Positions 44,665 to 63,024 of a stretch of 64,000 nt of DNA are shown here, in pieces. The stretch lies in the NCBI GenBank assembly GCA_001414325.1, contig LLKB01000001.1, positions 997,699-1,061,698 on the forward strand. Reading direction: 5' to 3'. A program made the translations under genes and the position numbers. Position 1 is the first letter of the stretch; each line of letters begins with the position of its first letter. Source of the stretch: Butyribacter intestini. GTDB lineage: Bacteria; Bacillota; Clostridia; Lachnospirales; Lachnospiraceae. The notes under the pieces were generated by a model that did no database searches, was not told the origin of the DNA, and worked only from the letters and a program-made list of their open reading frames with translations.

Positions 44665-45402
44665 TCAATCCTGAGAATAAATATTAATATCTTTTTCACT
44701 GTCAATATCAAACAATTCTTTCCCGTCTTCAACATCTATATAAAAACATTCATGTCTTTTTGCGACTTTTCTGCCCCCGCTGTCACCGCTTAACTCCAAC
44801 AGTTCAGGGATAAGTTCGCAGGAGAACATACATGGATTTCCTGCTTTTGCCCTATATCTTGCTGAAAATACCTTGTAATCTTTGCTGTTTTTTTCTTCTG
44901 ACAAAATATTTTCATAATCACCATTATTTTTTTCACCATTCGCCAAAAGCATTTTGTAATCTTCACTTTTTTTATCTTGCGATGCTGCCTCGATAAATTT
45001 AAGTATCGTCTTTTCGCTAAGATACGGCTGGTCCGCAACGATAAACAAAAGCCAGTCGTCTTTTTTCAACCTGCCCATCAAACTATTTATCCCTGCTTTT
45101 ATCGTATATGACGCACCGAGCCTGCTATCACCGCAAAACACGGTATTTATATCTTTTCTGCCATCAAGGTCAGCTATTATCCTGTCGTATTGTGTTACAA
45201 CAGTAAGTGTTATGTCGTAATCTATATCTTCGTTTATTTTTCTGCTGCTTACAATATCTGATAACATATCAAGCGTATGTCTGTAAAGCATTTTTCCCTG
45301 CCAGATATGTAAGAGTTTATTACTTCCAAAACGGCGGCTGTTCCCAGCCGCCATATATATAATGTGTATCATATTTTTTGATTTTATATATTTGCGAAAC
45401 AA
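44665..45402 (-). CDS. mocA: MocA/YgfJ-type molybdenum cofactor nucleotidyltransferase
   Basis: The start IIYMAAGNSRRFGSNKLLHIW is the nucleotidyltransferase signature (AAGxSxRxGxxK), and LFIVADQPYLSEKTI is the D-x-P motif II of MocA/MobA/YgfJ proteins; GNPCMFSCELIPELLELSGDSGGRK matches motif III (GNP...GD.G.R). It should attach CMP to molybdopterin for xanthine-dehydrogenase-type enzymes. About 35 residues (138-175) between motifs II and III form an insert with a threefold echo: SEDYKM, NGDYEN, SKDYKV. The start is uncertain: TTG at 45402 or ATG at 45369, neither with a strong site. It is the last gene of the hydroxylase locus. Confidence 0.85.
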   Translation of the reverse strand: MFRKYIKSKNMIHIIYMAAGNSRRFGSNKLLHIWQGKMLYRHTLDMLSDIVSSRKINEDIDYDITLTVVTQYDRIIADLDGRKDINTVFCGDSRLGASYTIKAGINSLMGRLKKDDWLLFIVADQPYLSEKTILKFIEAASQDKKSEDYKMLLANGEKNNGDYENILSEEKNSKDYKVFSARYRAKAGNPCMFSCELIPELLELSGDSGGRKVAKRHECFYIDVEDGKELFDIDSEKDINIYSQD

Positions 45403-45505
45403 TCTTAATTTTATATAAGCAACGTGTGTGAATGCTATTATCTATATCCCTGTTCAATCAATATAGACTAATCCGTCGAAGCTTTTCACCTCAGCCGCCA
45501 GACTA

Positions 45506-47842
45506 CTATATGATACGGTGGTCAATCTCTTTCCACTCAGGATCAATCATCCCCATAAGGATTTTTTCAGGTGTGAACGGAACTGTTCTGTGCCACACTC
45601 CGGTTGCCCTGTATATTGCGTGTGCAAGAGCCGGTGCAGGGGTATTTATAACTATCTCTCCTATCGACTTTACACCGAAAGGTCCTGACGGTTCATAGCT
45701 TGTTTCAAACTCAACATTTATATTTCCTACATCAAGTCTTGTTGGAATTTTATACTGCATAAGGCTGTTCTCGGCAATCTTTCCCTCTGCACTGTATGTG
45801 ACATTTTCATAGAGTGCCATGCCTATCCCCTGTCCTATACCGCCCTCTGTCTGAACTCTTGCAAGGTTTGGATTTACCGGTATTCCGCAGTCGACAACCG
45901 CCTGATAATCAAGTATCTTTACGCTTCCTGTTTCTTTGTCAAGCTCTATCTCAACCATTCCGACCATATACGGCGGCGGTGATACAGGTGATGAATATGT
46001 CTCGGTCACATCGACAGGGATATTATTGTTTACCTGTGATTTTGTAGCAATATCCGCAAGGCTGACCGATTTTTCATATTCCGTCATATACACTTTCTCG
46101 CCATCAAAATCTACATCTTCAGAAGAACAGCCGAGAAGCCCTGCACCTATCTTCATTATGTTTTCACGAAGTTTTAAAGCGGCATTTTGTGTAGCCATTC
46201 CCGTGATGTAAGTTGTTGATGAAGCATAAGAACCTGAATCATAAGGTGATGCGTCTGTGTCTGCACCAAAAACGGAAATTTTATCTGCATCACAGTCTAG
46301 GACTTCTGCTGCCATCTGCGAAAGAATGGTATCACAGCCTGTTCCCATGTCAGCCGCACCTATCATCATATTATATGTTCCATCGTCTGAAAGTTTTAAT
46401 GTACATGAACCCACATCAACATTTGAGATGCACGAACCCTGCATCGCAAGTGCCATTCCTGCTGCCCTGACTTTGCCGTTTCCCATATCCCTGACCGGAT
46501 ATTTCTCAGCCCAGTTGAAATTTGCGGCACAATGCTCTATACACCTATCCAATGCACAGGCATTCGCTGTCTCACCAAAGTATGCAGGCATGAACATTCC
46601 CTCTCTTACAATGTTTTTCATCCTTATCTCAACCGGATCTATATGAAGTTTTTCCGCAAGTTCATTTACAGCAGATTCGAGTGCAAAAATTCCCTGTGTT
46701 GCCCCGTATCCTCTATATGCTCCTGCTGCCTGAACATTCGTGTAGACAACATCACATGAAAATTTTGTCGCTTCACATCCGCCCGTATAAAGCGGCAGTG
46801 ATTTGTGGCCTGAAAGTCCAACGGTCGTTGTGCTGTGTTCACCGTATGCTCCTCCGTTTGACAGCGTATAAAGGTCTATCGCTCTTATCCTGCCGTCTTT
46901 CATTGCACCAAGACGAACCGTCACTTCCATTTCATGGCGGGGTGAAGATATTATCTGACATTCATTTCTGCTGTAAATAAGTTTGCTCGGCTTTTTTGTC
47001 ATCCATGTAACAAAAGCCGGATAGACTTCACATACGGCTGTCTGTTTTGCCCCAAAACCTCCGCCTATGCGTGGTTTTTCCGCACGCACCATCGATTTTG
47101 GAATATCGAGTGCATTTGCAAGTATTCTTCTGATATGAAAAACTATCTGCGTTGAACTTATGCAATGAAGTCTGCCATATCTGTCAATCTCACAGTACGC
47201 CCTTATCGTTTCCATGTAAGCCTGCTGTGCCGCCTTTATATGCCAGGTATGCTCTATTATCTCCTCACAGTCATTAAATACTGCATTTACATCACCATGT
47301 TCATCTTCCTCATGGTGTATAAGATTTCTCTTAACATCACCCGTATTGCCATATGACATCCAGTTATCCTCCGGATGCACAAGTATGGGATTGTCAAGTG
47401 CCTTGTGAAAATCAAGTACAGGTTCGAGTACCTGATATTTTACTTTTATAAGTTTTAATGCTTTATCAACAGCTTTCTCACTCTCACCCGCAACTATCGC
47501 AACAGGATCACCTACACTTCTCACCCTTCTGTCAAGTATAAGCCTGTCATACGGTGACGGCTCCGGAAAAGTCTGGCCTGCAATGCTGAAACGCTTGTCA
47601 GGAACATCTTTCCATGTATAAACAGCTTCTATCCCCGATACTTTCATTGCAATATCAGTGTTTATATCCTCAACTAAGGCATGAGCATGAGGGCTTCTGA
47701 GAAGCTTTACCACAAGGCAGTCCGATGGTGTTATGTCATCGGTAAATACCGGCTTTCCAAGGAGAAGCTGTGATGAGTCTTTCTTTGGAATACTTTTTCC
47801 TACTGCATGATAATCTTTTCTTTCACGGTTAAATTCACTCAT
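45506..47842 (-). CDS. xdhA: xanthine-dehydrogenase-type molybdenum-binding subunit
   Basis: The 778-residue large subunit has the molybdenum hydroxylase motifs GGGFGAKQ (about 260), AAGAYRGYGATQG (about 374), AMQGSCISNVDVGS...GAADMGTGCDTILSQMAAE and the C-terminal GPFGVKSIGEIVINTPAPALAHA holding the general-base glutamate (about 728). It hydroxylates a purine or related N-heterocycle at the Mo centre. In this locus a labile selenium ligand on Mo is expected from the neighbouring maturation genes. The start at 47842 has AGGAG seven bases upstream and overlaps the 2Fe-2S gene by eight bases, so translation is coupled. Substrate is inferred only from the purine permease in the same cluster. Confidence 0.93.
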   Translation of the reverse strand: MSEFNRERKDYHAVGKSIPKKDSSQLLLGKPVFTDDITPSDCLVVKLLRSPHAHALVEDINTDIAMKVSGIEAVYTWKDVPDKRFSIAGQTFPEPSPYDRLILDRRVRSVGDPVAIVAGESEKAVDKALKLIKVKYQVLEPVLDFHKALDNPILVHPEDNWMSYGNTGDVKRNLIHHEEDEHGDVNAVFNDCEEIIEHTWHIKAAQQAYMETIRAYCEIDRYGRLHCISSTQIVFHIRRILANALDIPKSMVRAEKPRIGGGFGAKQTAVCEVYPAFVTWMTKKPSKLIYSRNECQIISSPRHEMEVTVRLGAMKDGRIRAIDLYTLSNGGAYGEHSTTTVGLSGHKSLPLYTGGCEATKFSCDVVYTNVQAAGAYRGYGATQGIFALESAVNELAEKLHIDPVEIRMKNIVREGMFMPAYFGETANACALDRCIEHCAANFNWAEKYPVRDMGNGKVRAAGMALAMQGSCISNVDVGSCTLKLSDDGTYNMMIGAADMGTGCDTILSQMAAEVLDCDADKISVFGADTDASPYDSGSYASSTTYITGMATQNAALKLRENIMKIGAGLLGCSSEDVDFDGEKVYMTEYEKSVSLADIATKSQVNNNIPVDVTETYSSPVSPPPYMVGMVEIELDKETGSVKILDYQAVVDCGIPVNPNLARVQTEGGIGQGIGMALYENVTYSAEGKIAENSLMQYKIPTRLDVGNINVEFETSYEPSGPFGVKSIGEIVINTPAPALAHAIYRATGVWHRTVPFTPEKILMGMIDPEWKEIDHRII

Positions 47843-48356
47843 TCTTCCACTCCTTTCCGATGTCTGCCCCAAAAACTTCTGCTTCAAGCTGCATAGGTGC
47901 ATTTTCCTTTTTGCTGTTCAGATAATTCCTGAGTGAACGAAGCTGGCTCTGATACCCCGTGCAGCGGCACAGATTGCCCGAAAGATACTCAAGTATCTCC
48001 TCGTCAGTCGGATCAGGATTTTCACGGAGAAGTGCCACTATATTAACTATATATCCCGGATTGCAAAAACCGCACTGGTCAGCACCCTGCATTGCAAAAT
48101 AACCGGTAAATTTTTTAGCTTCTTCCTCCAGTCCTTCAAGTGTATCAACGCATCTTCCGTCTGCCCTGCCGACAGGAATACTGCACGAAAGCATCGGCTT
48201 TCCATCCATAAGCACCGTGCAAAGACCACAGTTTCCTGTTTCACATCCTCTCTTTACCGAATAACATTTATGTTTCCTGCAAAAATCTATAAGAAGCATA
48301 TCTGCGTCTACGGTATCTTTTATCATTTTTCCATTTAATGTAATCTTTACTTCCAT
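47835..48356 (-). CDS. xdhC: xanthine-dehydrogenase-type 2Fe-2S subunit
   Basis: The 173-residue small subunit carries two [2Fe-2S] clusters: CYSVKRGCETGNCGLCTVLMDGKPMLSC in the plant-ferredoxin domain (quoted cysteines at about 38-68) and QCGFCNPGYI...NLCRCTGY in the helical domain. It passes electrons from the Mo site to FAD. The start ATG at 48356 overlaps the stop TGA of the FAD subunit gene and is preceded by AGGAGG; a longer frame to 48425 runs inside that gene. The C-terminal 25 residues beyond the second cluster are an unusual short tail. Symbol follows the E. coli XdhABC subunit usage, not the maturation factor. Confidence 0.94.
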   Translation of the reverse strand: MEVKITLNGKMIKDTVDADMLLIDFCRKHKCYSVKRGCETGNCGLCTVLMDGKPMLSCSIPVGRADGRCVDTLEGLEEEAKKFTGYFAMQGADQCGFCNPGYIVNIVALLRENPDPTDEEILEYLSGNLCRCTGYQSQLRSLRNYLNSKKENAPMQLEAEVFGADIGKEWKNE

Positions 48357-49165
48357 CAGCAGATTTCCTCCTTTTCGTTTTCTGATACTATCGTCTTTAA
48401 TGCCCTTTTTACAAGAACATTGCATATTATCTTTCTATACTCGGCACTGGCACGCATATTGCTGCCAAAACGGATATTTTTTGCCACATAATCTGCAAAT
48501 CTTTCAATATTTTCATCTGTAGTTACAGATAATATATTTTCACTGTCATATACAGGCTCAGCCATATATGGAGTTGCCCCGATAACAGCCATAGTACCTC
48601 TTTTTCCTTTTGAAACGGCACAGGTAAGCACCGGAAAATCTGTTGACTGGTTTCTCTGGCTCAGATAAACTACCTTTTCGGTTTCCTTTGGCACAATTAC
48701 TGACACAAGTATATCTCTCACCGTGCGTGGCAGCTTTACAAAATCGTCAAGTTCCATGATACCCTCATGGAAAAGCTCCACTTTAGCACCAAGTGCCCTA
48801 AATATCGTCATAACATCTGAAAAGCCATACCGCCCCCATATACTTCCGCCGACCGTTGCAACATTTCTAAACTGGACACCGACTATATCTTTTACGGAAT
48901 TGGCAAAGGCATTATCCGTATATTTATTTAATGATTCATTTGTCTCTATGTCCCTTAATGATACATATGCACCTATACGAAACTCGTTTTCATTTTCTTC
49001 TATGCCGTCAAGCCCCAGTTCACAGAGGTCTATCGCTGTTCCAAGAGTCGTATTTTTCATCTTTGTCCAAAGCATTCCGCCGACAATGAAATTTTGTCTT
49101 TTCTGGTAGAGTTCATATGCTTCTTCGAGGCTTTTTGCCCTTATATACTGATTATAATAGAACAT
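48356..49165 (-). CDS. xdhB: xanthine-dehydrogenase-type FAD-binding subunit
   Basis: The 269-residue subunit shows the FAD_binding_5 start (YNQYIRAKSLEEAYELYQKRQNFIVGGM), the FAD loop FRNVATVGGSIWGRYGFSD at about 110, and the CO-dehydrogenase flavoprotein C-terminal domain. The usual G-G-T-D/N-L pyrophosphate loop at about residue 32 is replaced by GGMLW, which is seen in the Se-dependent hydroxylase group. It takes electrons from the iron-sulfur subunit to NAD+ or another acceptor. First of the three structural genes; ends overlapping the 2Fe-2S subunit start. Confidence 0.92.
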   Translation of the reverse strand: MFYYNQYIRAKSLEEAYELYQKRQNFIVGGMLWTKMKNTTLGTAIDLCELGLDGIEENENEFRIGAYVSLRDIETNESLNKYTDNAFANSVKDIVGVQFRNVATVGGSIWGRYGFSDVMTIFRALGAKVELFHEGIMELDDFVKLPRTVRDILVSVIVPKETEKVVYLSQRNQSTDFPVLTCAVSKGKRGTMAVIGATPYMAEPVYDSENILSVTTDENIERFADYVAKNIRFGSNMRASAEYRKIICNVLVKRALKTIVSENEKEEIC

Positions 49166-49195: not shown

Positions 49196-49450
49196 TTAAA
49201 ACAAATCCAGTTCATATACCGCATCCCACTGAATTTTTTCTTTCTGCATAAAGTTTATTGTCTCATTTCTCATATCAGGCTCTGTCTTCCAAGCAAGACC
49301 ACACCCTGCCGATATTTTTGACGGCAGCGGTATTATCCTGCCGTAAATATTTTCACTCTTTGCCCTGCTCTCCATTTCCATCGCAGCAGTTGTATTTTTG
49401 AATGAAATCACAAGCTGTGTATGTCTCTCTCTCTTACAATTTTCGTACAT
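49196..49450 (-). CDS. DUF3343 (putative Se/S carrier-like) protein
   Basis: An 84-residue protein reading HTQLVISFKNTTAAMEMESRAK...GRIIPLPSKISAGCGLAWKTEP, the typical DUF3343 pattern with one conserved cysteine in AGCGLAW. It is known by context as a frequent companion of selenium and sulfur trafficking genes and is sometimes annotated as putative Se/S carrier. Here it sits between YedF (four bases away) and the hydroxylase subunits, supporting a role in selenium delivery. No strong ribosome binding site is visible, so it may be translationally coupled to yedF. Confidence 0.82.
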   Translation of the reverse strand: MYENCKRERHTQLVISFKNTTAAMEMESRAKSENIYGRIIPLPSKISAGCGLAWKTEPDMRNETINFMQKEKIQWDAVYELDLF

Positions 49451-49454
49451 AATA

Positions 49455-50126
49455 TTATGGGCAGACTATAAGTGATGCTTCCGTCATTTTTTTAGTAATT
49501 TCATACATATTTGTGGCTTCGCCGACACAGAGCTTTTCGGTAAGTCCGTAATAATTTAGACAAGTACCACAGGTAAATATCTTTACACCTTTTTCCTCTA
49601 AAGCCTTTAAATCTTCTATCGACTCAGAGCCTTCACTTGTAATCTTTGCACCGCCGTTATAAAAAAGCATTGTCTGTGGCAATTCGTCCTGCTGCGAAAG
49701 TGCATAGATAAAGCCTTTGATAAGCACCTTTCCAAGTTCGTTATCACCATCACCCATAAATTCAGACTTTATTACTACAACTTTTTCACCGCTGTTTTTA
49801 ATATTGCATGAAACCATATCATCCGCACCTGTCTTTATGGAATTTGCTTTAGCCTCGGATGTTGCTTTAGCATTTGTTACTGACATTTTATTGTCATTTA
49901 TTTTATCAATATCCTCCACGGTTATCTTTACACTGTACCCGGAATTTATCTTGCTGTCTGAAACTGCAAATCCCATCTGTGAAGCCATCTTTTTAAGATT
50001 TTCAACGGCAATCTCATTATCAACAAGAGTCTCAACCGTATCCGGTTTTTCAAGTTTCTCAATCGCTTTTTTTGTCTTAACTACCGGTATCGGACAGGTA
50101 TCACCTATTGCATTTATTGTTATCAT
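49455..50126 (-). CDS. yedF: YedF-type sulfurtransferase-like selenium metabolism protein
   Basis: The 223-residue protein has an N-terminal TusA-like domain (INAIGDTCPIPVVKTKKAIEKL, with the CPxP cysteine at about 10), a variable linker at about 75-115, and a C-terminal DsrE-like domain ending TCGTCLNYYGLTEKLCVGEATNMYEI. This two-domain form is annotated 'sulfurtransferase-like selenium metabolism protein YedF' and occurs beside selD. The CPxP and CGTC cysteines could carry persulfide or perselenide. The start at 50126 has AAAGGAG upstream. SelD lies 89 bases upstream in transcription. Confidence 0.9.
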   Translation of the reverse strand: MITINAIGDTCPIPVVKTKKAIEKLEKPDTVETLVDNEIAVENLKKMASQMGFAVSDSKINSGYSVKITVEDIDKINDNKMSVTNAKATSEAKANSIKTGADDMVSCNIKNSGEKVVVIKSEFMGDGDNELGKVLIKGFIYALSQQDELPQTMLFYNGGAKITSEGSESIEDLKALEEKGVKIFTCGTCLNYYGLTEKLCVGEATNMYEITKKMTEASLIVCP

Positions 50127-50215
50127 AATAACTTTTTTCTCCTTTACTTTATATCCATAGTATATGTTATATTCACACAATTAATACAACATATAATTAG
50201 TTTCGCAATCTCCTG

Positions 50216-51241
50216 TTACTTTATATAGATATTTTTTTCTTTTTTTTGCGTAAAATGACCAACTATCGCCGCCGGAAGTCCCTCATTTTTTAATTCTTTT
50301 AAAAATGGCAGTGCATCTTCTTTCTTTACGGCAAATAAAAGTCCACCCGATGTCTGCGGATCAAATAACAGCTCTTCCATCGCAAATGTTATGTTTTCTG
50401 AAAAATCCACATTATCTGCGACATGATTTCTGTTTCGCTGTGCTGCTGCCGTGAGCAGAAATTCTTCGGCATAATGAAGTGCACCTTTTATAACAGGTAT
50501 GGATATTGAGTCAATCTCCGCCGATACATTGTTATTTATCATCTCGTTTAAATGACCTAAAAATCCAAATCCTGTCACATCAGTGCAGGCATGGATTTCA
50601 TAATTTCTGCTTATCTCAGACGCTTTTTTATTGAGTGTAGTCATCGACTCTATTGCTTCATCAAGTGAACCTTTAAAAGCCTGTCCGACACGCTGTGCAT
50701 TGCACACAAGCCCTACACCGAGTTTTTTTGTAAGTATAAGTATGTCAGCCGGTTCTGCCTTATTATTTTCATATATTTTGTCAGGATTTACAAGTCCCAT
50801 AACAGACAGACCGTATTTTACACTGTCATCGGCTATGGAATGACCTCCTGCAAGTGTGGCACCTGCTTCATTCACCTTTTTTGCACCGCCCTGCATTATC
50901 TTTCCAAGAATGTTTAAGTCCATCTTTTCAGGAAAACAGACTATATTTAGTGCAGTCTTTACCTCACCGCCCATCGCATATACATCACTTAATGCATTTG
51001 CCGCCGCTATCTGTCCAAAAATATACGGATCGTCGACCATCGGTGGAAAAAAATCGAGTGTCTGAACAATTGCCATATCGTCTGATATTCTATATACTGC
51101 CGCATCGTCACTGCTGTCATAACCGACAAGAAGTGAAATATCTTTCTCACCTTTAGGTATTTTTGAAAGTATATGTTTCAATACATCTGCTCCAAGTTTT
51201 GCGGTACATCCACCGCCTTTACAAAAAACTATATCTTCCAT
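50216..51241 (-). CDS. selD: selenide, water dikinase
   Basis: Makes selenophosphate from selenide and ATP. The 341-residue protein has the N-terminal glycine-rich loop [11 protein letters not shown], where the Cys and Lys match E. coli Cys17 and Lys20, then [66 protein letters not shown] and the C-terminal [13 protein letters not shown]. The protein is the Cys form, not the selenocysteine form found in many Clostridia. There is no selA, selB or tRNA-Sec gene in the window; the neighbours point to the labile-selenium cofactor use of selenophosphate. It follows the desulfurase gene by six bases. Confidence 0.96.
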
Positions 51242-51247: not shown

Positions 51248-52399
51248 TTATATGTCCACCACCTTTTTAGCAATTTCTTTTACTGCATCTGCCGCCGCCG
51301 TCACTTCTTCCTCTGTATTATAATACGAAAAACTAAATCTTACCATACCCTGTGTTTTTGTGCCAAAATATTCGTGCATAAGCGGAGCACAATGAATCCC
51401 TGCTCTGGTGACTATTCCAAATTCATCTTCAAGGAGCATACTTATCTCTGAAGAATCTGCCGTTCCTATATTTAATGAAACTATCGGACAGCGGACTCTA
51501 TCCTGTCTGAAATCACCATAGACTTTTACGCCTTTTACCCTGCTTATACCCGAATAAAATATCTGCATAAGTCTGTTTTCTTTATTGTATATCTTATCAA
51601 TTCCAACAGTGTTTATCTCCTTTACAGCGGCAAGAAGCCCTGCTATCCCGTGGCTGTTTAATGTCCCTGCTTCAAGCAGTTCAGGAAGTTCCTCAGGCTG
51701 TTGTCTTAAAAAACTTTTTATGCCTGTCCCACCGCTTTTTAAAGGTCTTATATCTATACCGTTTCTTATATAAAACCCGCCTGTCCCCTGCGGTCCCATA
51801 AGACTTTTATGTCCTGTAAAACAGAGTATGTCTATATTCATATCCCTAACATTTATAGGCAGTACACCTGCAGTCTGTGATGCGTCCACTATAAAAAGAA
51901 GATTATGTTTTTTTGCAATCTCTCCAATCTTTTTTATATCGACAACATTCCCCGTAAGGTTGGATGCGTGAGTACAGATGATTGCTTTTGTAGCTTTTGT
52001 TATCATATCTTCTATACCAGAGGCATCAACAATCCCATTACCACTGCACGATACAATGTCTGCCTTAACTCCTCTTTCACCGGCATAATAAAGAGGTCTT
52101 AACACTGAATTATGTTCAAGGTTTGTGGTAATAACCGTGTCACCCTCATTAAAAAGTCCATGAATAACGGTATTTAATGCCTCGGTCGCATTTGATGTAA
52201 ATATAAGACCTGAGACATTGTCACCGCCAAAAAATTCAGTAAGGCACTTTCTTGTTTCAAATATACACCTTGATGCTTCAAGTGATGTCTCTCCATACCC
52301 CCTGCCTGAATTTCCATAATTTTTCATTGCGTGCATAACAGCATCATATACAGCTTGCGGTTTGTAAAGTGTAGTCGCCGCATTATCAAGATATATCAC
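51248..52399 (-). CDS. cysteine desulfurase-like PLP enzyme of the EF2568 type
   Basis: A 383-residue class V aminotransferase-fold enzyme: IYLDNAATTLYKP at the start, NATEALNTVIHGL, the PLP aspartate and His in VDASQTAGVLPI, the PLP lysine in CFTGHKSLMGPQGTGG (about 203) and the catalytic cysteine in RAGIHCAPLMHEYFGT (about 335). This form, annotated as a cysteine desulfurase family protein after the Enterococcus faecalis EF2568 locus, travels with selD and yqeB. It could release sulfur or selenium from (seleno)cysteine. A GTG start behind GGGGGA is used. It is adjacent to selD. Confidence 0.92.
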   Translation of the reverse strand: MIYLDNAATTLYKPQAVYDAVMHAMKNYGNSGRGYGETSLEASRCIFETRKCLTEFFGGDNVSGLIFTSNATEALNTVIHGLFNEGDTVITTNLEHNSVLRPLYYAGERGVKADIVSCSGNGIVDASGIEDMITKATKAIICTHASNLTGNVVDIKKIGEIAKKHNLLFIVDASQTAGVLPINVRDMNIDILCFTGHKSLMGPQGTGGFYIRNGIDIRPLKSGGTGIKSFLRQQPEELPELLEAGTLNSHGIAGLLAAVKEINTVGIDKIYNKENRLMQIFYSGISRVKGVKVYGDFRQDRVRCPIVSLNIGTADSSEISMLLEDEFGIVTRAGIHCAPLMHEYFGTKTQGMVRFSFSYYNTEEEVTAAADAVKEIAKKVVDI

Positions 52400-52464: not shown

Positions 52465-52477
52465 GGCTGAACTGTTA
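52465..52477 (-). repeat. TAACAGTTCAGCC element, stop-codon copy in modC
   Basis: The element begins with the TAA stop of modC (52477-52475) and continues CAGTTCAGCC, then TTGCATTTCTTAAATAAA, matching the 29949 copy in its flank. Confidence 0.6.
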
Positions 52478-53608: not shown

Positions 53609-53637
53609 ATCAATCCTCATTCTTGCAGATTTCTTAC

Positions 53638-54306: not shown

Positions 54307-54320
54307 AATAAACCTCATTT

Positions 54321-55187: not shown

Positions 55188-55229
55188 AAAAAACTCTTTT
55201 CTGCACACTCATTTTTTCCTTTAATCAAT

Positions 55230-56795
55230 CTACATTCTCTCCAGCATAACACTTATATTTCCACCACACACCATGCCCTCTTTTTCAGTATCATCAGTAT
55301 TCATACTTACTTCCATTATCTCAGGTTTGCCTATAAAATGTTTATTTGCAAAATCGTCTTTCTGACAAACAGCCTTATTTTTATTCTCATCATTTTTTGA
55401 TGCTGTTTCCTGCATTGGCATTGCAAAGCCGTTAAAAATGTCCCTGCATCTCGTGATAATTTCAGCCTCCGCACATCCTCCTCCGATAGTTCCTATAATT
55501 CGGTTGTCCGAAGTTACTATCATCTGTGTTCCGACATTTCTTGGAGCACTGCCGCTTTTTCTTATAATGGTACATAAAATCCTCTGCTCATCAGACGGTT
55601 TTGCAAGTTCATCAATAATATTATCATCAACAGAGCCGTTATTGCAATGTTTATTTTTACAATATACTATCTCACTCATAACTGACAACGCTATCTCCTG
55701 TGGTGTAGCCGCACATATTGAAAGACCTATTGGTGAATGAAGTTCATTTATTTTTTCAATCTCAATACCATGTTCTTTAAGGTCTTTTCTTACCATTACC
55801 GACCTCCTTTTTGAACCCATCATCCCTACATATGCGTATGGCATCTTAAAAATCTCAAAAATGCACTGTTCGTCAAATCTGTGTCCTCTGGTCATGCACA
55901 CAAAATAGTTGTCACGGTTTTTGTCTATAGTTTTCAATGCATTTACATAGTCATCACATATAACATTTTCTACCCCAAGACTGCGTATTTTCTGAGCAAA
56001 TATGGGTCTGTCCTCTATCGCGGTAATGTCGAAATCCACAAGTTCAGCCATCTTCACAAGTGCCTCTGCCACATGACCTCCACCGCATATTACAAGATTA
56101 GGTCTGCCGGTGATGTTTTGGATAAATAATGTATTGTCCCCTATCTTAACCAGACTGCTGCCATCATTACTTCCGTTATCATCAATACCGCAGAAAGTCT
56201 TACACATTTTTTTTACTATATCACCGGTAAAATAGTCACCATAGCTTACCCTTATTCTGCCGTCTGTAATGTAGGCTTTCTGTCCTGTTGCCTCACCTGA
56301 TACAACTGTAGCAATAAATGACTTTTCAGCTCGATCCCTGTCTCTTATACTTAAATACATATCAGCTTCAAGCATTTTTACTTCATCACCCTCATTTATC
56401 ATACCTCCATTTATGACAACTGCAAACACACCCTCTTTGGGCATAATACATTCACCCATACGCTCATATATCTTGCAATGAGAATGACACTCCTTACCTA
56501 TCTGCGTCATTTCAAGAACGGCATCACCTATTTTAAAGCGTGTTCCAAGCGGCAGACTCCTAAAATCAAATCCTGAGATTATCAGATTTTCTCCAAATGC
56601 ACCGTTTTCTACTTTAGCACCTTTTTTCCTGAACTCCTCTATTTTTTCATATGACAAAAGACTCACCTGTCTGTGCCATCTTCCGGCGTGTGCATCTCCA
56701 TCAAGCCCATAATTCCTGATAAGCCTGACTTTTGGAATCTGCTTTTTTTCAGTTCCACGCTCCCTGCTTATGTTTATTGCAATAAGTTTTCCCAA
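55230..56795 (-). CDS. MOSC domain - XdhC-family fusion protein
   Basis: A 521-residue fusion. Residues 1-145 form a MOSC domain (INISRERGTEKKQIPK, GLDGDAHAGRWHRQVSLL, GAFGENLIISG, IGKECHSHCKIYE with the cysteine of the family). Residues about 150-220 resemble a shortened XdhC/CoxI segment, about 220-370 are the XdhC Rossmann domain (RPNLVICGGGHVAEALVKMAEL, MTRGHRFDEQ, YVGMMGSKRR, SPIGLSICAATPQEIALSV), and about 390-521 look like a complete XdhC_CoxI domain (CTIIRKSGSAPRNVGTQMIV...IGTIGGGCAEAEI, ending MVCGGNISVML). CoxI normally precedes the Rossmann domain, so the order is rearranged. XdhC proteins bind Moco and insert the terminal sulfido ligand; MOSC domains bind Moco or carry sulfur. A TTG start behind AGGAGG is the only credible one. 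Confidence 0.88.
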   Translation of the reverse strand: MGKLIAINISRERGTEKKQIPKVRLIRNYGLDGDAHAGRWHRQVSLLSYEKIEEFRKKGAKVENGAFGENLIISGFDFRSLPLGTRFKIGDAVLEMTQIGKECHSHCKIYERMGECIMPKEGVFAVVINGGMINEGDEVKMLEADMYLSIRDRDRAEKSFIATVVSGEATGQKAYITDGRIRVSYGDYFTGDIVKKMCKTFCGIDDNGSNDGSSLVKIGDNTLFIQNITGRPNLVICGGGHVAEALVKMAELVDFDITAIEDRPIFAQKIRSLGVENVICDDYVNALKTIDKNRDNYFVCMTRGHRFDEQCIFEIFKMPYAYVGMMGSKRRSVMVRKDLKEHGIEIEKINELHSPIGLSICAATPQEIALSVMSEIVYCKNKHCNNGSVDDNIIDELAKPSDEQRILCTIIRKSGSAPRNVGTQMIVTSDNRIIGTIGGGCAEAEIITRCRDIFNGFAMPMQETASKNDENKNKAVCQKDDFANKHFIGKPEIMEVSMNTDDTEKEGMVCGGNISVMLERM

Positions 56796-56800: not shown

Positions 56801-57751
56801 TTAACCTCCTATCATATTCATGGTTTTAGTTTCTTTTTCACATAAAATATCTTCAAAATGATGGGATTTTGGCTTTTCATATATAGCCTTTCTCATAATT
56901 TTTGTAAGTTCATCTTTTCCGATGTCAAGTGCTTCTTTTAAATCTATAATTCTGCTATCGGCAAGGCATGGTTTTAACCCTGCATCTGATGTTATTCTTA
57001 TGCGGTTGCATCTGTCACAAAATTTACCGTGAACCGCCTGAATAAGACCTACACGCACCCCTAGTTTCCGGAAAGCATAATACTCTGCCGGTCCGTTTTC
57101 ATCATGCATTTTTGATACTCCACACACTTTTCCGTATTTCTTTTCAAGTTTTTCAATAACAGCCTTTCTCGGAATAATATCATTTTTCTCTCCTATTCCT
57201 ACAGGCATCAGCTCGATAAATCTTATATCAATATTTTTGTCATTTGCAAACTCTGTCATTTTCAGCACATCAACTTCACTTCTTAGAACAGTATTTATTT
57301 TAAGTTTAATTCTGCTATCTAAAGCGGCATCTATCCCATCAATAACATTCCTAAGGCAGTTTCGCCCCGTGATTTTCCTAAACTCGTCAGAATCTACGGT
57401 ATCAAGACTCACATTTATGCTGTCTGTCCCTGCCATTTTTAATACATCAGCCTTTTCGCTTAGAAAAACTCCGTTTGTGGTAATTCCGATAAAATTTACT
57501 CCACTCACATTTCTCATTTTTGCGATAAGTTTTTCAATATCCGGATAGATAAGCGGCTCACCCCCTGTCAGTCTGAAATTTGTTATCCCAAGGCAAACAG
57601 CACTCTCAACACACTTTAATACGGTTTCCACAGTGAGATAATGTATATCGGAAATCTTTCCCTCGGGCATACAATAACTGCATCTGAGATTACAATTATC
57701 AGTCAGCGAAATCCTCATATAATCAATCTTTCTTCCATAGCCGTCCGTCAT
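56801..57751 (-). CDS. moaA: GTP 3',8-cyclase
   Basis: A radical SAM enzyme that starts molybdopterin synthesis from GTP. Seen: the 4Fe-4S motif CNLRCSYC near residue 22, the GGEPL motif, SLDTVDSDEF, the second cluster CDRCNRIRITSDAGLKPCL near 250, and the conserved C-terminal Gly-Gly. The start was placed at the ATG at 57751, with GGTGGTG as ribosome binding site; two GTG codons just upstream are in frame. It follows the MoeA-like gene by 50 bases and precedes the MOSC-XdhC gene by five. Confidence 0.96.
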   Translation of the reverse strand: MTDGYGRKIDYMRISLTDNCNLRCSYCMPEGKISDIHYLTVETVLKCVESAVCLGITNFRLTGGEPLIYPDIEKLIAKMRNVSGVNFIGITTNGVFLSEKADVLKMAGTDSINVSLDTVDSDEFRKITGRNCLRNVIDGIDAALDSRIKLKINTVLRSEVDVLKMTEFANDKNIDIRFIELMPVGIGEKNDIIPRKAVIEKLEKKYGKVCGVSKMHDENGPAEYYAFRKLGVRVGLIQAVHGKFCDRCNRIRITSDAGLKPCLADSRIIDLKEALDIGKDELTKIMRKAIYEKPKSHHFEDILCEKETKTMNMIGG

Positions 57752-57801
57752 ACTTTTCACCACCCCTGTACGATTTAAATATCAAGTTTGTACAAAGCAC
57801 A

Positions 57802-58836
57802 TTACCACCCTTTTCCAAAACCGCAATTTGGAAATGTGCACACATCACAATTTAAGCAAAATCCACCCTCACCTAATAATGCGAGTTCATCCGATGTTAT
57901 CATATCATTTGCAAGAAGTCTCGGCAGAACCAGGTCAAAGATAGTTCTTTTATTATACATGGCACACCCGGGAAGTCCGCATATCGGTATTATCCTGTCA
58001 TCTTTTTTATAATAAGACAACAAAAACATTGCACCCGGCAAAACGGGTGAACCATATGATATTATATCCGCTCCCGTATTTTTTATGGCAAGAGGTGTTT
58101 TATCATCGGGGTCAACACTCATACCACCGGTACAAAATATTATGTCAACGCCTGTATTTACGGCATCAAGGCATCCCTTAGTTATCTTTTTATCATCATC
58201 ATTAAAAGTCTCATGGAATACCATTTCTACACCAAATTCATTTATTTTTTTTTCGATAACAGGTGTAAATCCGTCTTTTATCCTGCCATAAAATACCTCG
58301 TTGCCTGTCGTAATAACAGCCGCTTTTTTCATCGTAAACGGGAGTATCTTTAATATCGGAACATCCGAACATATCTCAGAAGCCTTTTCCATTTTCTCTT
58401 TTTTTATAACAAGAGGTATTATCCTTGTTCCTGCAAGTTTATCCCCCTTTTTTACAACGGTATTTCCATGCCTTGCCGCTATCATAAGCTCACCAAAAGA
58501 ATTAACTTTCTTTAATCTTTCTCTGTCAACCTTAAGAAGTCCGTCACTATCTGCGATTACTTCTATTTTTCCCTCTTTTACCTCGGACGGATGCATATTT
58601 TCCCCTGCCGTCATACGATAAAGTATCTCTGCCGCATCGTTCTCATGAAGCATTGTCTCATCATTTTCCCATATATATATCATATCTTTACCGACGCTTA
58701 AAAGCACCGGTATATCTTCTTCTGTTATAATATGTCCCTTGCGGAATACGGCATCCTTTTTTACACCGGGAATTATCTGTGTTATGTCATGGCACAACAC
58801 CTGCCCGACCGCTTCAGTTGTTTTTACAAGTTTCAT
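57802..58836 (-). CDS. MoeA-like molybdopterin-binding protein with C-terminal cysteine cluster
   Basis: A 344-residue protein with a MoCF-biosynthesis domain (ITTGNEVFYGRIKD near 175; DIIFCTGGMSVDPDDKTP near 232; ICGLPGCAMYNKRTIFDLVLPRLL near 290) preceded by a short MoeA domain I/II-like region (LCHDITQIIPGVKKDAVFRKGHII). It lacks the standard MoeA C-terminal domain IV and ends with C-x2-C-x2-C-x4-C (CLNCDVCTFPNC), a possible Fe-S or zinc site. This truncated MoeA-like form is known near yqeB in selenium-hydroxylase loci. Molybdate insertion or a variant step is inferred. It overlaps the mogA gene by four bases. Confidence 0.87.
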   Translation of the reverse strand: MKLVKTTEAVGQVLCHDITQIIPGVKKDAVFRKGHIITEEDIPVLLSVGKDMIYIWENDETMLHENDAAEILYRMTAGENMHPSEVKEGKIEVIADSDGLLKVDRERLKKVNSFGELMIAARHGNTVVKKGDKLAGTRIIPLVIKKEKMEKASEICSDVPILKILPFTMKKAAVITTGNEVFYGRIKDGFTPVIEKKINEFGVEMVFHETFNDDDKKITKGCLDAVNTGVDIIFCTGGMSVDPDDKTPLAIKNTGADIISYGSPVLPGAMFLLSYYKKDDRIIPICGLPGCAMYNKRTIFDLVLPRLLANDMITSDELALLGEGGFCLNCDVCTFPNCGFGKGW

Positions 58837-59333
58837 TTAAGTTTCCCTCCGCACTCACTGTCATATCCGAGCAGAATATCAAGCCCATGCTCTATATTTC
58901 CAATCAGGAACTCCATACTCTCTGATACTGCTTTAACGCTTCCTGGAAGATTTATTATAAGTGTCCTGTTTCTTATAACTGATGCTCCTCTTGAAAGAAT
59001 TGCTCTTTTTGTAAACTGCATACTATAGGCACGAAGTCCTTCTGCTATCCCCGGTGCATTTTTTTCTGCCACACTAAGCGTCACCTCAGGTGTTATATCT
59101 CTTTTTGAAAAACCGGTCCCGCCTGTTGTTAGGACAAGATTGCATTTTACTTCATCGCAAAGTCTTGTAAGCTCACTCTTAAGCATCTGTTCATCATCAG
59201 GCAGCAGTTTATATGATACAACCTCGTACTTATCTTTTGGGAGGAGTTCTTTTATTTTGGGTCCGCTCATGTCCTTCCTAATCCCTTCTGAGCCTTTATC
59301 ACTTAATGTGATTATCCCTACGCTGTACAACAT
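58833..59333 (-). CDS. MogA/MoaB-family molybdopterin adenylyltransferase-like protein
   Basis: A 166-residue protein with GIITLSDKGSEGIRKDMSGP at the start, LVLTTGGTGFSKRDITPEVT at about 66 and LIINLPGSVKAVSESMEFL near 128, the molybdopterin-binding MogA/MoaB fold. It activates molybdopterin by adenylylation (MogA) or is a paralogue (MoaB); the TGGTG and D-x-T-P-E motifs are intact. MogA and MoaB are not easily separated at this level. It ends in an ATGA overlap with the MoeA-like gene, so translation is coupled. Confidence 0.93.
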   Translation of the reverse strand: MLYSVGIITLSDKGSEGIRKDMSGPKIKELLPKDKYEVVSYKLLPDDEQMLKSELTRLCDEVKCNLVLTTGGTGFSKRDITPEVTLSVAEKNAPGIAEGLRAYSMQFTKRAILSRGASVIRNRTLIINLPGSVKAVSESMEFLIGNIEHGLDILLGYDSECGGKLK

Positions 59334-59357
59334 AAGATTATCTCACCTCGTCTGATA

Positions 59358-59870
59358 TTAATTGTCACTACTGTTCACATCTGTATTGCGGTCAGCAACA
59401 TAATGACCGCTTTTTCCACCTGCTTTTTCGAGCAGATAAATATTTTTTATCTCCATTGAACGACAGACCGCCTTGCACATATCATATATAGTCAAAAGTG
59501 CCGTGCTCACACCTGTAAGAGCCTCCATCTCAACACCCGTTTTTCCAACACAGGCAGTTGTACATACTGCCGTTATTGTCTTATTGTCTTCATCAAGTTC
59601 AAAATCCACATCGCATTTTGTCATGGCAATGGGGTGGCAGAGCGGAATAAGCATTGAATTATTTTTTGCCCCCATTATCCCTGCAATGCGTGCTATTCCA
59701 AGCACATCCCCTTTTTTGGCAGTCCCGTTTGCCACGGCATTAAATGCATCCTCATTCATTTTTATCTCACCACAGGCTTTTGCTACACGGTATGTGTCCT
59801 CTTTTTCGTGAACATCTACCATATGTGCTTCGCCTGCTTCATTAAAATGTGTAAGTTCTTTCTTATCCAT
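59358..59870 (-). CDS. moaC: cyclic pyranopterin monophosphate synthase
   Basis: Converts the MoaA product to cyclic pyranopterin monophosphate. The protein has the family motifs [49 protein letters not shown] (with the catalytic Lys/His), [26 protein letters not shown] and the C-terminal [12 protein letters not shown]. The 170-residue length includes a short Asn/Ser-rich tail. The start at 59870 has GAGGA upstream; the ATG-like codon at 59882 is inside that site. Confidence 0.97.
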
Positions 59871-59967
59871 TTTTATCCTCATTATTATAGCTCATTTGCA
59901 AAACCTATTGCAGATGATGTCTACTTTATAATTTCTGCACATTACCATCCTGAAAAACATAAATAAA

Positions 59968-60816
59968 CTACATACCCGACACATAGCTGCATACCGCTTC
60001 AAGCACACTGCCGCCTATACTTCTTGATTTGTCCGATATTGTAAAGCAGTTTTTTAACTCGCCCTCTCTCGGATCTATATCTGCTATTTTAAATCCCTCA
60101 GTCACCTCAAAGCCGTCTCTGATAAGACCTCTGATAATACCTGATATGGTTGCATTTACAGGTACATACTCTCCTTGAAATCCTGACTTGGAAGTATTAT
60201 TATCATATTTCTCGTATATCCTTGCTATCTCATCACCTTTTTTTACAACATCACCTATGTGGCGGATATTTTTTATAAAGCCATAAGCCGCCGCATGAAT
60301 GACACGCTCACTTGTATAACCGCCTATATTTCCCGGTATTCCGGTATTTGCAAGAGCCTGCCCTTTATCTATTATCCTTGCGAGATTGTGACCTCTCATA
60401 GTTTCCACAACTATGTCAACATCTTCCCCAGCCGTAAATCCCGGACCAACTCCTATAACAAGCGGTGCCATGTCCATAAATGTTCCAAGATTTTTCTTTG
60501 CGATTATCGCATCTACTACTATGTCAGGTCTTAATTTTGCAATCGACTCTCCTTCAGGGTCAATGATAACCGGCACAACTCCCTGTTTAATAACCTCATC
60601 CATCTCATCTAATGATGTTATAAGTCTAGCCTTAACTCCCTCTATTGTTATCTCTTTGTCGTAGACTGCCTCGCAGAACGAAACCTGCCTTCGTATTGCT
60701 GCTGGCTTTTTAGTTTCAAGTGCCAGCACTTTAAACCCTGCCCTGTGAAGTCTGTGAATAATGCCTGTCGCAAGGTCACCCGCACCACGGCACACTATAA
60801 ATATATCTTTAATCAT
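59968..60816 (-). CDS. yqeB: YqeB-family selenium-dependent hydroxylase maturation protein
   Basis: A 282-residue protein beginning IFIVCRGAGDLATGIIHRLHRAGFKVLALE, an NAD-like Rossmann start, with FCEAVYDKEITIEGVKA, GPGFTAGEDVDIVVETMRGHNLARII and IPGNIGGYTSERVIHA blocks typical of YqeB (EF2570-type). The C-terminal third has a biotinyl/lipoyl-like IGDVVKKGDEIA. Known by comparative genomics as a marker of the labile-selenium molybdenum hydroxylase trait; its chemistry is unproven. It follows yqeC after three bases. The ATG has AAAGGA upstream. Confidence 0.93.
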   Translation of the reverse strand: MIKDIFIVCRGAGDLATGIIHRLHRAGFKVLALETKKPAAIRRQVSFCEAVYDKEITIEGVKARLITSLDEMDEVIKQGVVPVIIDPEGESIAKLRPDIVVDAIIAKKNLGTFMDMAPLVIGVGPGFTAGEDVDIVVETMRGHNLARIIDKGQALANTGIPGNIGGYTSERVIHAAAYGFIKNIRHIGDVVKKGDEIARIYEKYDNNTSKSGFQGEYVPVNATISGIIRGLIRDGFEVTEGFKIADIDPREGELKNCFTISDKSRSIGGSVLEAVCSYVSGM

Positions 60817-60819
60817 AAT

Positions 60820-61425
60820 CTATTCCTTTAAAAATACAATTCCATCATCTGTCTTTTTTGAATAAATATAATGCATTTTTCCTTTAAATCCTAATTTTCT
60901 AAGCCTTTTTTCATATACTTCCTGAATTTGTTTTATATGTTCAAAAGTAACCTTTTCATCAGCTTTTGTCCCTATTTCAAAACTCATATCCTCAAATCTG
61001 AAAATAACATCTTTGCAATACTTTCCTATATCCCACAACCCTAAAACAAGATAAACATCCGTAGTAAACTCAAAAATAACAGGTTCACTTTCTAACGGAT
61101 ATTTAAGCGAATAATGCTTTGCTCCGTCAGCTTCTATCAGAATATTGTCTGCATACGGCATTATCCCTTTAAGTATTTCAAGCGGAAGTGCCTGAATTTT
61201 TTTATTGCTGCCATCACATATTTTTCCTGCCATGCAGTATTTATCATTTTTTAATCTCTCAATGATGCTAAAAATATCACATGAAATATCGGTATCTTTT
61301 TCAAGCATCATATGTGTTGTAGTTGTCAGAAGTACCGTCTCTTTTTTTCCAAGATAATAATCTGACATTTTATGGAGCAGGCTTGTCTTACCGCCTGCTC
61401 CTATCACTGATATTATATTTTTCAC
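60820..61425 (-). CDS. yqeC: YqeC-family selenium-dependent hydroxylase accessory protein
   Basis: A 201-residue P-loop-like protein: NIISVIGAGGKTSLLHKMSDYYL (GxGGKTS loop at about 9), VLLTTTTHMM, and a conserved LIEADGAKHYSLKYPLESEPVI near 97. These are the YqeC hallmarks; the family is a putative selenium-dependent hydroxylase accessory protein of unproven activity, possibly a GTP/ATPase used in selenium insertion. The start is GTG behind AAGAGG; it overlaps the stop of the short ORF upstream by GTGA. yqeB follows three bases after its stop. Confidence 0.92.
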   Translation of the reverse strand: MKNIISVIGAGGKTSLLHKMSDYYLGKKETVLLTTTTHMMLEKDTDISCDIFSIIERLKNDKYCMAGKICDGSNKKIQALPLEILKGIMPYADNILIEADGAKHYSLKYPLESEPVIFEFTTDVYLVLGLWDIGKYCKDVIFRFEDMSFEIGTKADEKVTFEHIKQIQEVYEKRLRKLGFKGKMHYIYSKKTDDGIVFLKE

Positions 61426-61523
61426 TTTAATCCTCTTTTCTGAGCAATTTGTTTATTATACAGTTCTTCTAAAACTTCATCTTCTTTACTTTTAGTCAGG
61501 AAATTTATTTTGCTCAGAAGCAA
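61422..61523 (-). CDS. possible 33-codon ORF coupled to yqeC
   Basis: In the 130-base gap between permease and yqeC the minus strand has a frame ending LTKSKEDEVLEELYNKQ and then IAQKRGLK, stopping at a TGA that overlaps the yqeC GTG. Its composition (charged helix, E/K-rich) looks more coding than the flanks. The only start is a TTG at 61523 with no clear ribosome binding site, so it may instead be a remnant or a chance frame. Nothing is known of its function. Confidence 0.3.
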   Translation of the reverse strand: MLLSKINFLTKSKEDEVLEELYNKQIAQKRGLK

Positions 61524-61554
61524 ATTGTGGCATGAAATGTATCAGTAGTATTTT

Positions 61555-63024
61555 TTAGTCTTCCTCATCTATATCCCACATCTTACGCACTGACTTTGAT
61601 TCCTTTGGCAATAAGATGTTTAATATTATCGCTGCAAGTGAACATGGTACTATTCCTGAACCACCAAATATAAGCTGTATATAATATGGAAGATGTGCTG
61701 TCGCACCCGTAGTTGCTCCAAGACCATAACCAAGTCCTATCGCCACCGAGATAATTGTTATCTCACGGCTGCCTATAGGCTCTTTTGTGATAAGCTGGAT
61801 ACCTGAAATAAGGATTGACGCAAACATCATAACTGCCGCACCGCCTAAAACAGACTGTGGCATTATTGACATGATAGCTCCTATCTTAGGGCAAAAGCCG
61901 CAGAGTATAAGGAATATTGCTCCCATAGATATTGCAAAACGATTTACGACTTTAGTCATTGAAACAAGTCCGACATTCTGTGAAAATGATGTATTGGGAA
62001 GTACACCGAAAAATGCCGCAAACGCTGAGCCAAGACCATCACATATAACACCGCCTGAAAGTTCGGTATCTGTTGCTTCTCTGTCCATTCCTCCCTCGAT
62101 ACAGGCAGATATATCTCCAACTGTCTCTATCGCAGTAACTATGAACATGATGCCTATCGGGATGATTGCACTTGCCTGAAATGACATTTTAACATCTGAA
62201 AGTGCACCAAATCCCATAAAACTTGGAATTGCTATCCATGCTGCATCTTTTACCTGTGAAAAATTTACTACCCATGAATATGTATATTTAGCTCCGTCAG
62301 CATCAACACCCGTATTTGGAAGTACAAATGTCATTATGACCGCAACTATATATCCTGCAAGTATTCCAAAAAGGATTGCCGAAGAAGAAAAGATACTGTT
62401 CTGTGGTGCAAAATGTTTTAATAATACGATAACTATCAAAACAACAAATCCCAAGAAAAGATTTGGAAGTGAGCCGTAATCAGCCTTACCGCTTCCTCCG
62501 CAGAAATAATTTATTCCGACACCAAGAAGTGAAAGTCCTATCGCTATTACGACAGAACCGGTAACTATAGGAGGAAAGAACTTTCTGAGTGGTTTTAAAA
62601 ATGCTCCTAATATTCCCTCGAAAATACCTCCTATAAGACAGGCTCCCATAATTGCCCCGTATGCAATAATACCTCCACCGCAAGCTGTCACGGTATTATT
62701 TAACACACCTAAAAATCCCGAAGATGTTCCCATGACGATAGGCACTTTTCCTCCGACAGGTCCTATCGAAAACATCTGCACAAGTGTTACTATTCCGGCT
62801 ATTATCATGGCATTCTGTAAAAGTGCCGTTCTAAGTTCAGAAAAACCTGCATCTGCCGTAAGTCCACAGACACCCATAACGATAATGAGCGGTGTAAGGT
62901 TTCCTATAAACATCGCCATTACATGCTGAAGTCCGAGCGGGATTGCCTGTGAGAGCGGAATTCTTCCCTCAAATTCATAAGGACTTGAATATCCGGCTGA
63001 CTTTTTTTCATTTGTCTCTTTCAT
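61555..63024 (-). CDS. NCS2-family purine/xanthine permease
   Basis: A 489-residue nucleobase-cation symporter with about 12-14 membrane segments. It begins PLSQAIPLGLQHVMAMFIGNLTPLIIV (the QH pair is a family hallmark), contains FPPIVTGSVVIAIGLSLLGVGINYF, and the signature SFSQNVGLVSMTKVVNRFA near residue 340. The family moves uracil, xanthine, hypoxanthine or urate with H+ or Na+; the QNVGL motif points to the purine/xanthine branch. The start at 63024 has GGAGG nine bases upstream. It has its own promoter and is the first gene of the hydroxylase locus, so the enzyme's substrate is probably a purine. Confidence 0.92.
   Translation of the reverse strand: MKETNEKKSAGYSSPYEFEGRIPLSQAIPLGLQHVMAMFIGNLTPLIIVMGVCGLTADAGFSELRTALLQNAMIIAGIVTLVQMFSIGPVGGKVPIVMGTSSGFLGVLNNTVTACGGGIIAYGAIMGACLIGGIFEGILGAFLKPLRKFFPPIVTGSVVIAIGLSLLGVGINYFCGGSGKADYGSLPNLFLGFVVLIVIVLLKHFAPQNSIFSSSAILFGILAGYIVAVIMTFVLPNTGVDADGAKYTYSWVVNFSQVKDAAWIAIPSFMGFGALSDVKMSFQASAIIPIGIMFIVTAIETVGDISACIEGGMDREATDTELSGGVICDGLGSAFAAFFGVLPNTSFSQNVGLVSMTKVVNRFAISMGAIFLILCGFCPKIGAIMSIMPQSVLGGAAVMMFASILISGIQLITKEPIGSREITIISVAIGLGYGLGATTGATAHLPYYIQLIFGGSGIVPCSLAAIILNILLPKESKSVRKMWDIDEED

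Follow-up and report, generated by a model that had tools for sequence, protein, structure and literature searches.

A nineteen-gene locus for a predicted selenium-dependent molybdenum hydroxylase in Butyribacter intestini and two candidate non-standard steps of molybdenum cofactor synthesis

Within a stretch of 64,000 nucleotides of the Butyribacter intestini genome (contig LLKB01000001.1 of assembly GCA_001414325.1, positions 997,699 to 1,061,698; hereafter the window), 19 consecutive long open reading frames (ORFs) lie on the minus strand between positions 44665 and 63096 and make up a locus for a selenium-dependent molybdenum hydroxylase (SDMH). The run is about 18 kb long with intergenic gaps of -70 to 129 nt, and it combines genes for molybdate uptake, synthesis of the molybdenum cofactor (Moco), selenium handling, maturation factors, a three-subunit molybdenum hydroxylase and an NCS2 permease. 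In the order of transcription, these are the NCS2 permease, yqeC, yqeB, moaC, mogA, a moeA-like gene, moaA, a MOSC-xdhC fusion, modA, modB and modC, followed by an EF2568-type desulfurase, selD, yedF, a DUF3343 gene, xdhB, xdhC (the 2Fe-2S subunit), xdhA and mocA. A sequence-only reading of this DNA had proposed a contiguous one-strand selenium/molybdenum hydroxylase run of about 18 genes. The ORF list of the whole window and the family models bear out the run, in which we count 19 genes, and the end then assigned to it, 63024, is the ATG of the permease gene, whose ORF extends to 63096.

The same reading had taken selD, yqeB and yqeC as the mark of an SDMH-type locus and had called for a search of the genome for selA, tRNA-Sec and selenouridine synthase. 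YqeB, YqeC and SelD all exceed their curated cut-offs (Table 1), and the Mo, 2Fe-2S and FAD subunits of the hydroxylase are recognized at the family level. Profile searches of the whole genome (3.61 Mb, 12 contigs, 99.6% complete) gave no match for SelA, no YbbB over the cut-off and no tRNA-Sec reaching the cut-off (SelB was not searched). Ten weak tRNA-Sec matches were obtained, of which eight were fetched, and all eight coincide with ordinary tRNAs predicted by ARAGORN. SelD passes the cut-off once. Because SelA has no match and YbbB and tRNA-Sec stay below their cut-offs, the SelD of this genome is an orphan with respect to these three markers, as the SDMH trait predicts; orphan selD has been reported in three species (Haft and Self 2008, PMC2276186). 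Among 100 genomes sampled from the family, YqeB was found over the cut-off in 27, SelD in 31, SelA in 11 and YbbB in none. Each of the 31 genomes with SelD also has YqeB or SelA, and SelD accompanies YqeB in 26 of 27 genomes, the exception (G051) having a SelD fragment at a contig start. SelA is absent from 20 of the 26 genomes with both YqeB and SelD; selenium use without SelA is common among YqeB genomes of the family. SelD is read through one in-frame TGA in 11 genomes, exactly the 11 with SelA.

These data bear on an alternative in which the hydroxylase has the usual sulfur ligand and the selenium genes have another purpose in the cell. XdhC, which is a sulfuration factor in other systems, is present, and XdhA falls below all selenium-specific model cut-offs, as that alternative would have it. 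Against it stand the lack of a SelA match and of YbbB or tRNA-Sec over the cut-off in a nearly complete genome, the location of selD, yqeB and yqeC inside the run and the presence of SelD over the cut-off in all but one of the YqeB genomes, so we regard it as very improbable. The run is a genuine, tightly packed SDMH locus of a type already described, and its hydroxylase is predicted to depend on selenium.

Table 1. Genes of the SDMH locus (window coordinates). Family calls follow NCBIfam curated cut-offs and Pfam cut-offs (score vs cut-off, in bits); proteins below an equivalog cut-off are named by family only. cPMP, cyclic pyranopterin monophosphate; MPT, molybdopterin; MCD, molybdopterin cytosine dinucleotide; pLDDT, predicted local distance difference test.
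Feature	Position	Strand	Evidence
MocA/YgfJ-like nucleotidyltransferase (probable MCD formation)	44665..45402	-	TIGR03310 93 vs 186; Pfam NTP_transf_3 82.8 vs 27
XdhA-type molybdopterin-binding large subunit	45506..47902	-	NF043082 596 vs 780; best PDB match 4-hydroxybenzoyl-CoA reductase alpha, 302 bits
2Fe-2S hydroxylase subunit	47835..48425	-	2Fe-2S subunit families, up to 136 bits, below equivalog cut-offs
FAD hydroxylase subunit	48356..49165	-	FAD subunit families, up to 75 bits, below cut-offs
DUF3343, putative Se/S carrier	49196..49450	-	PF11823 82.5 vs 25
YedF (TusA + DsrE domains)	49455..50180	-	TIGR03527 207 vs 110; PF01206, PF02635
SelD selenophosphate synthetase, without in-frame TGA, N-terminus GGGCTAK	50216..51241	-	TIGR00476 398 vs 125
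EF2568-type cysteine desulfurase / selenocysteine lyase	51248..52399	-	TIGR01977 450 vs 377
ModC molybdate ABC ATPase	52475..53620	-	TIGR02142 195, below cut-off 285
ModB molybdate permease	53638..54318	-	TIGR02141 204 vs 183
ModA molybdate-binding protein	54321..55208	-	TIGR01256 92.8 vs 62.5
MOSC-XdhC fusion	55230..56795	-	PF03473 51.6 vs 22.7; PF13478 (XdhC_C) 123 and PF02625 (XdhC_CoxI) 66, both over their Pfam cut-offs
MoaA GTP 3',8-cyclase	56801..57763	-	TIGR02666 306 vs 284
MoeA-like, MoCF domain + Cys4 tail	57802..58836	-	PF00994 73 vs 26.6; alignment A4; Foldseek to Mo-insertase E domains
MogA-type MPT adenylyltransferase	58833..59333	-	NF006932 149 vs 158; TIGR00177 domain model 103 vs 85; PF00994 104
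MoaC cPMP synthase	59358..59882	-	NF006870 221 vs 162
YqeB, SDMH maturation factor	59968..60816	-	TIGR03309 350 vs 220; structure model pLDDT 95.9
YqeC	60820..61425	-	TIGR03172 134 vs 73; PF19842 111 vs 27.6
NCS2 xanthine/uracil-family permease (ATG at 63024)	61555..63096	-	TIGR00801 296 vs 292; PbuX 355 vs 414

Since promoter- and terminator-like sites occur across the window at chance level, co-transcription of the 19 genes is suggested by their spacing alone; none of the five terminator-like sites on the minus strand, a chance frequency, falls inside a gap of the run. Control of the run by a riboswitch or another regulatory RNA was considered and rejected, as Rfam models gave only weaker matches in it, below their gathering scores. 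In the whole window only one Rfam match reaches its gathering score, an FMN riboswitch far from the run (11594-11728, minus strand), and no tRNA genes were found there.

The packing of the locus had been called unusually complete. It is rare and not unique: all 19 genes occur in identical order in genome G027, which belongs to another genus, and most parts recur in several further loci. We compared 80 named YqeB loci, 56 of them longer than 18 kb, by counting 20 parts (MOSC and XdhC counted apart) at score thresholds of our own; flanks were cut at 10 kb, which makes the counts lower bounds. At least 15 parts are present in six of the 56 long loci and at least 17 in two, the fullest being L180 from an uncultured Roseburia (18 parts) and L139 from an uncultured Phascolarctobacterium (17 parts). 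A seventh locus with 15 parts, L164, is 17.8 kb long, so that seven of the 80 named loci hold 15-18 of the 20 parts. The nearest named YqeB loci, at 62% identity, belong to one Eubacteriales and one Lachnospiraceae metagenome-assembled genome. In the family sample, where contig breaks again make the counts lower bounds, at least 4 of the 23 genomes with both genes have moaC no more than about 10 kb from yqeB, and at least 10 of the 27 YqeB genomes have selD in that range.

The enzyme had been read as a purine oxidase, a proposal that draws on the permease and on family resemblance, which together suggest a purine as its substrate. The top NCBIfam match of XdhA is the xanthine dehydrogenase XdhA model, though below its equivalog cut-off, and the NCS2 permease that heads the run is kept in G027 and present in 10 of the 56 long named YqeB loci. 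Close relatives of the three-subunit hydroxylase are encoded near yqeB in four genomes (G058, G093, G057 and G032). Several observations count against a selenium-dependent purine hydroxylase: XdhA passes none of the 13 curated NCBIfam cut-offs among the models matched, including that for the fused selenium xanthine dehydrogenase of the EF2570 type (TIGR03311, Se_dep_XDH; 282 vs 830 bits), its subunits being separate here; its nearest solved relative is the alpha subunit of 4-hydroxybenzoyl-CoA reductase; and MocA remains below the curated equivalog cut-off of TIGR03310, with its NTP_transf_3 domain passing Pfam. An SDMH that acts on a non-purine ring, for instance that of nicotinate or of an aromatic acyl-CoA, would be in keeping with the same PDB match (the genome was not searched for purine breakdown genes); given the permease and the XdhA model, we hold this to be unlikely and retain a purine as the presumed substrate.

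The locus had also been described as self-contained, which would hold if non-canonical proteins carry out two steps of Moco synthesis, since neither MoaE nor MoeA_N has a match anywhere in the genome. The MoaE search was positive in 11 of 14 control genomes (MoaD/ThiS was not searched). Of the 100 family genomes, 33 have MoaC and one has MoaE (G050); of 196 genomes sampled from the class, 46 have MoaC and 12 have MoaE, ten of the latter together with MoaC. The two samples share two MoaC genomes, that of the window (G000) and G022, and hence comprise 77 distinct ones. MOSC domains, detected by Pfam PF03473 in the family sample and by our alignment A1 in the class sample, were found in 31 of 100 genomes (30 with MoaC) and 44 of 196 genomes (43 with MoaC, one of them, G217, having a broken copy), respectively. 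Altogether, MOSC occurs in 71 of the 77 MoaC genomes, and without a MoaC match only in G058 and G287. Counted by genus, MoaC is found in 34 and MOSC in 33 of the 134 genera of the class sample. The co-occurrence is significant by Fisher's test (p 6e-21 in the family, 2e-38 in the class, kinship ignored). Among genomes that have MOSC and moaC on a single contig, the two are no more than 5.5 kb apart in 24 of 25 from the family and in 31 of 33 from the class. Alignment A1 comprises 18 MOSC sequences with the window protein as its first row, and the latter belongs to this clostridial Moco subfamily by its four invariant residues, C103, H104, C107 and C116. For the family, the MOSC sequences of 29 of the 30 genomes with MoaC and MOSC were inspected in an alignment that leaves out that of G085. 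In G217 (L117, C11, record positions 130018-130894), MOSC and MoaC remnants full of stop codons lie close to an intact moaC; they may represent part of a moa cluster that was duplicated or is decaying.

Six MoaC genomes have no MOSC (G039, G053, G081, G146, G239 and G274), and in three of them MoaE takes the same place. In G239, a gene beside moaC encodes MogA with MoaE attached at its C-terminus, and in G274 moaE adjoins mogA and moaC. In G053, which has YqeB and SelD, MogA is fused to a C-terminal part that stays just under the MoaE cut-off (22.3 vs 23.4 bits) and can be aligned with the remaining 12 MoaE sequences. The clostridial MoaE profile found no match among PDB sequences at E 0.1; in an alignment with E. 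coli MoaE, R39, R104 and K119, which we take to have a catalytic role in the latter, are kept. Separately, eleven genomes (L119-L128 and G154, the latter as L118) have a gene for a free-standing MoaE-like protein, around which no moa gene was seen for about 4.5 kb, and the ten of these proteins that were aligned share a Cys near the C-terminus with cluster-borne MoaE.

Gene fusions connect MOSC with the enzymes of the neighboring steps. A MOSC-MogA fusion is found in 13 family genomes, and the parts of a MoaC-MOSC-MogA fusion in G003 are arranged as in the pathway, where the dithiolene step is the central one. Five class genomes (G101, G155, G207, G224 and G242) have MoaC and MOSC matches in frames of 301-314 amino acids that fit one fused gene, and the MOSC-XdhC fusion occurs in the window genome and in G027. 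From its distribution, position and fusions, we consider it somewhat probable that the MOSC protein is the MPT-forming enzyme that makes the dithiolene step.

Moco binding and sulfuration are the best-known roles of MOSC domains, and in the competing explanation the one encoded here would be a Moco carrier, a sulfurase of the Mo ligand or a molybdoenzyme of the YiiM/YcbX type, with an unrecognized protein doing the dithiolene step. The fusion of the window MOSC to the late-acting XdhC agrees with such a role, as do its nearest solved chains, which are YiiM, weakly (E 0.0009). A 2018 survey treats MOSC-containing proteins, YcbX, YiiM and clostridial ones among them, as molybdoenzymes (PMC6147048). 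Other facts also speak against a MOSC-based synthase: neither MOSC nor MoaE was found in three MoaC genomes (G039, where moaC is at a contig end, G081 and G146); nine genomes with MoaC and MOSC also have MoaE, which is over 700 kb away from moaC or on a different contig; G287, which has MOSC without a MoaC match, likewise carries a detached MoaE; and the co-occurrence statistics ignore phylogeny. The proximity of MOSC to moaC, its fusions to MoaC and MogA, and the MoaE-like ends of the MogA fusions in G053 and G239 are all contrary to the carrier or molybdoenzyme explanation, which we consider possible and yet clearly short of even odds. YedF or SelD-linked proteins as a substitute for MPT synthase were set aside because MoaC and MOSC genomes without YqeB or SelD over the cut-off (e.g., G022 and G061) also lack MoaE.

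For a MOSC-based or MoaE-less synthase, our literature search retrieved no systematic case and only passing statements: MoaE absence is noted in acetogens (PMC5039349) and in Geobacter metallireducens (PMC2700814), and MOSC proteins are suggested as possible MPT synthase in Dehalobacter (PMC4751268). Published transposon sequencing data for E. faecalis, tabulated for EF1392-EF1395, class MoaC as critical; the entries EF1393-EF1395, for MoaA, MOSC and the Moco gene that follows, are classed as important (PMC7701990).

The second non-standard step would be molybdenum insertion. By Pfam, MoeA_N (PF03453), the domain that defines canonical MoeA, is seen neither in the MoeA-like protein nor elsewhere in the window genome. 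The tail of this protein has four invariant Cys residues (327, 330, 333 and 338; alignment A4), and its structural model aligns to Mo-insertase E domains (Foldseek E 3e-10, template modeling score 0.36), with a poor whole-chain superposition (root mean square deviation of about 17-18 A). Within the fetched stretches, to which these counts are confined, MoeA-like proteins were found in 25 of the 33 MoaC genomes of the family, 13 without and 12 with a MoeA_N match; of the others, three have MoeA_N with no MoeA-like protein found, and five have neither. A selenium-specific role of the MoeA-like protein did not hold up, as it also occurs in the moa clusters of YqeB-negative genomes. We give an even chance to the combined proposal that the Cys-rich MOSC is a MoaD/MoaE-independent molybdopterin synthase, general in most Moco-making Clostridia, that the MoeA-like Cys4 protein is the matching Mo-insertase in genomes lacking MoeA, and that neither is a selenium part.

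Among the maturation factors, YqeB looks like a cofactor-holding chaperone because it is fused elsewhere to XdhC (XdhC-YqeB), to MocA (YqeB-MocA) and, in one genome, to an EF2568-type desulfurase, and because none of its Cys residues is invariant in 61 sequences (the best, C257, is present in 51). The latter result led us to reject YqeB as a carrier of selenium on cysteine. Lys residues 107, 243 and 263 are invariant in the 61 rows, a pattern relevant to the idea of a biotinyl-type carrier lysine. In the published account, the growth of C. difficile lacking yqeB on xanthine and urate resembles that of selD mutants; a yqeC deletion alone has no obvious phenotype, which tells against a maturation role of YqeC, and the partial complementation of a double mutant leaves such a role possible (PMC11448449). 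In the window MOSC-XdhC protein, the MOSC domain (residues 35-140) is followed by the Rossmann half (234-376) and then the CoxI half (403-454) of XdhC. The Rossmann half precedes the CoxI half also in L063 (13316-14887) and L114 (3609-5012), as in the window gene at 55230-56795, the opposite of the TIGR02964 profile, where it is C-terminal. The XdhC type common to MOSC-XdhC and YqeC-XdhC fusions appears to be circularly permuted.

We infer catalytic roles for MOSC, the MoeA-like protein, YqeB and YqeC within the following order of work. The permease would import purine and ModABC molybdate; MoaA and MoaC would make cPMP, into which the MOSC domain, rather than MoaD/MoaE, would put the dithiolene sulfurs; MogA would adenylylate MPT, the MoeA-like protein would insert Mo, and MocA would add cytidine monophosphate to give the MCD cofactor. 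The EF2568-type lyase, DUF3343, YedF and SelD would mobilize and activate selenium, and XdhC, YqeB and YqeC would keep hold of the MCD cofactor during the installation of Se as the terminal Mo ligand and the entry of the cofactor into XdhABC. To the reading of the run as the selenium locus of a bacterium that uses SelD only for a labile-selenium molybdenum hydroxylase, this order included, we assign a probability of about 0.72.

Directly downstream of the run, on the same strand, lies a gene for an aconitase-family hydratase (PRK11413 type, 1364 bits; 42197-44545). About 10 kb from the locus, the window encodes a formate-tetrahydrofolate ligase (33320-35116), which could be used in purine fermentation. 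It also encodes two adjoining RimK-like ATP-grasp ligases (35194-37157), only the first of which (36183-37157) is above the family cut-off.

Compared with known systems, the MOSC protein would catalyze the same reaction as the MoaD/MoaE synthase, whose MoaE occupies the same cluster position in three genomes, two of which have it fused to MogA, yet MOSC is a different Pfam domain from MoaE. The way in which MoaE and MOSC replace each other next to moaC points to a concrete candidate enzyme for molybdopterin synthesis in bacteria without MoaE. The Dehalobacter Moco cluster is similar in having MOSC proteins in the moa cluster with no MoaD/MoaE found; the passage in question concerns formate dehydrogenases, names no SDMH and gives no survey or fusion evidence (PMC4751268). 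The MoeA-like protein shares the MoCF domain with MoeA, gephyrin E and Cnx1E, and differs from them in lacking MoeA_N and in its Cys4 tail, besides superposing poorly as a whole chain. Like this locus, the selenium-dependent purine pathway of C. difficile involves selD and yqeB, there needed for good growth on xanthine and urate, whereas yqeB, yqeC and selD are scattered in that species and form one run here; the same source calls selenium placement on molybdenum hydroxylases the least understood selenium route (PMC11448449). The closest counterpart described is the SDMH region EF2563-EF2582 of E. faecalis, with its orphan selD, yqeB, yqeC, mocA, yedF, EF2568-type desulfurase and molybdenum hydroxylase (Haft and Self 2008, PMC2276186). 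In contrast to that region, where the hydroxylase is of the fused EF2570 type and the moa genes lie with MOSC elsewhere (EF1392-EF1395), the B. intestini locus has three separate hydroxylase subunits and holds molybdate uptake and moa genes in the same run. With both the molybdenum and selenium pathways in one run, in a genome without sign of selenocysteine use, single genes could be moved or deleted step by step, and the added value of the locus over these known systems is that it exposes two non-standard steps of Moco synthesis.

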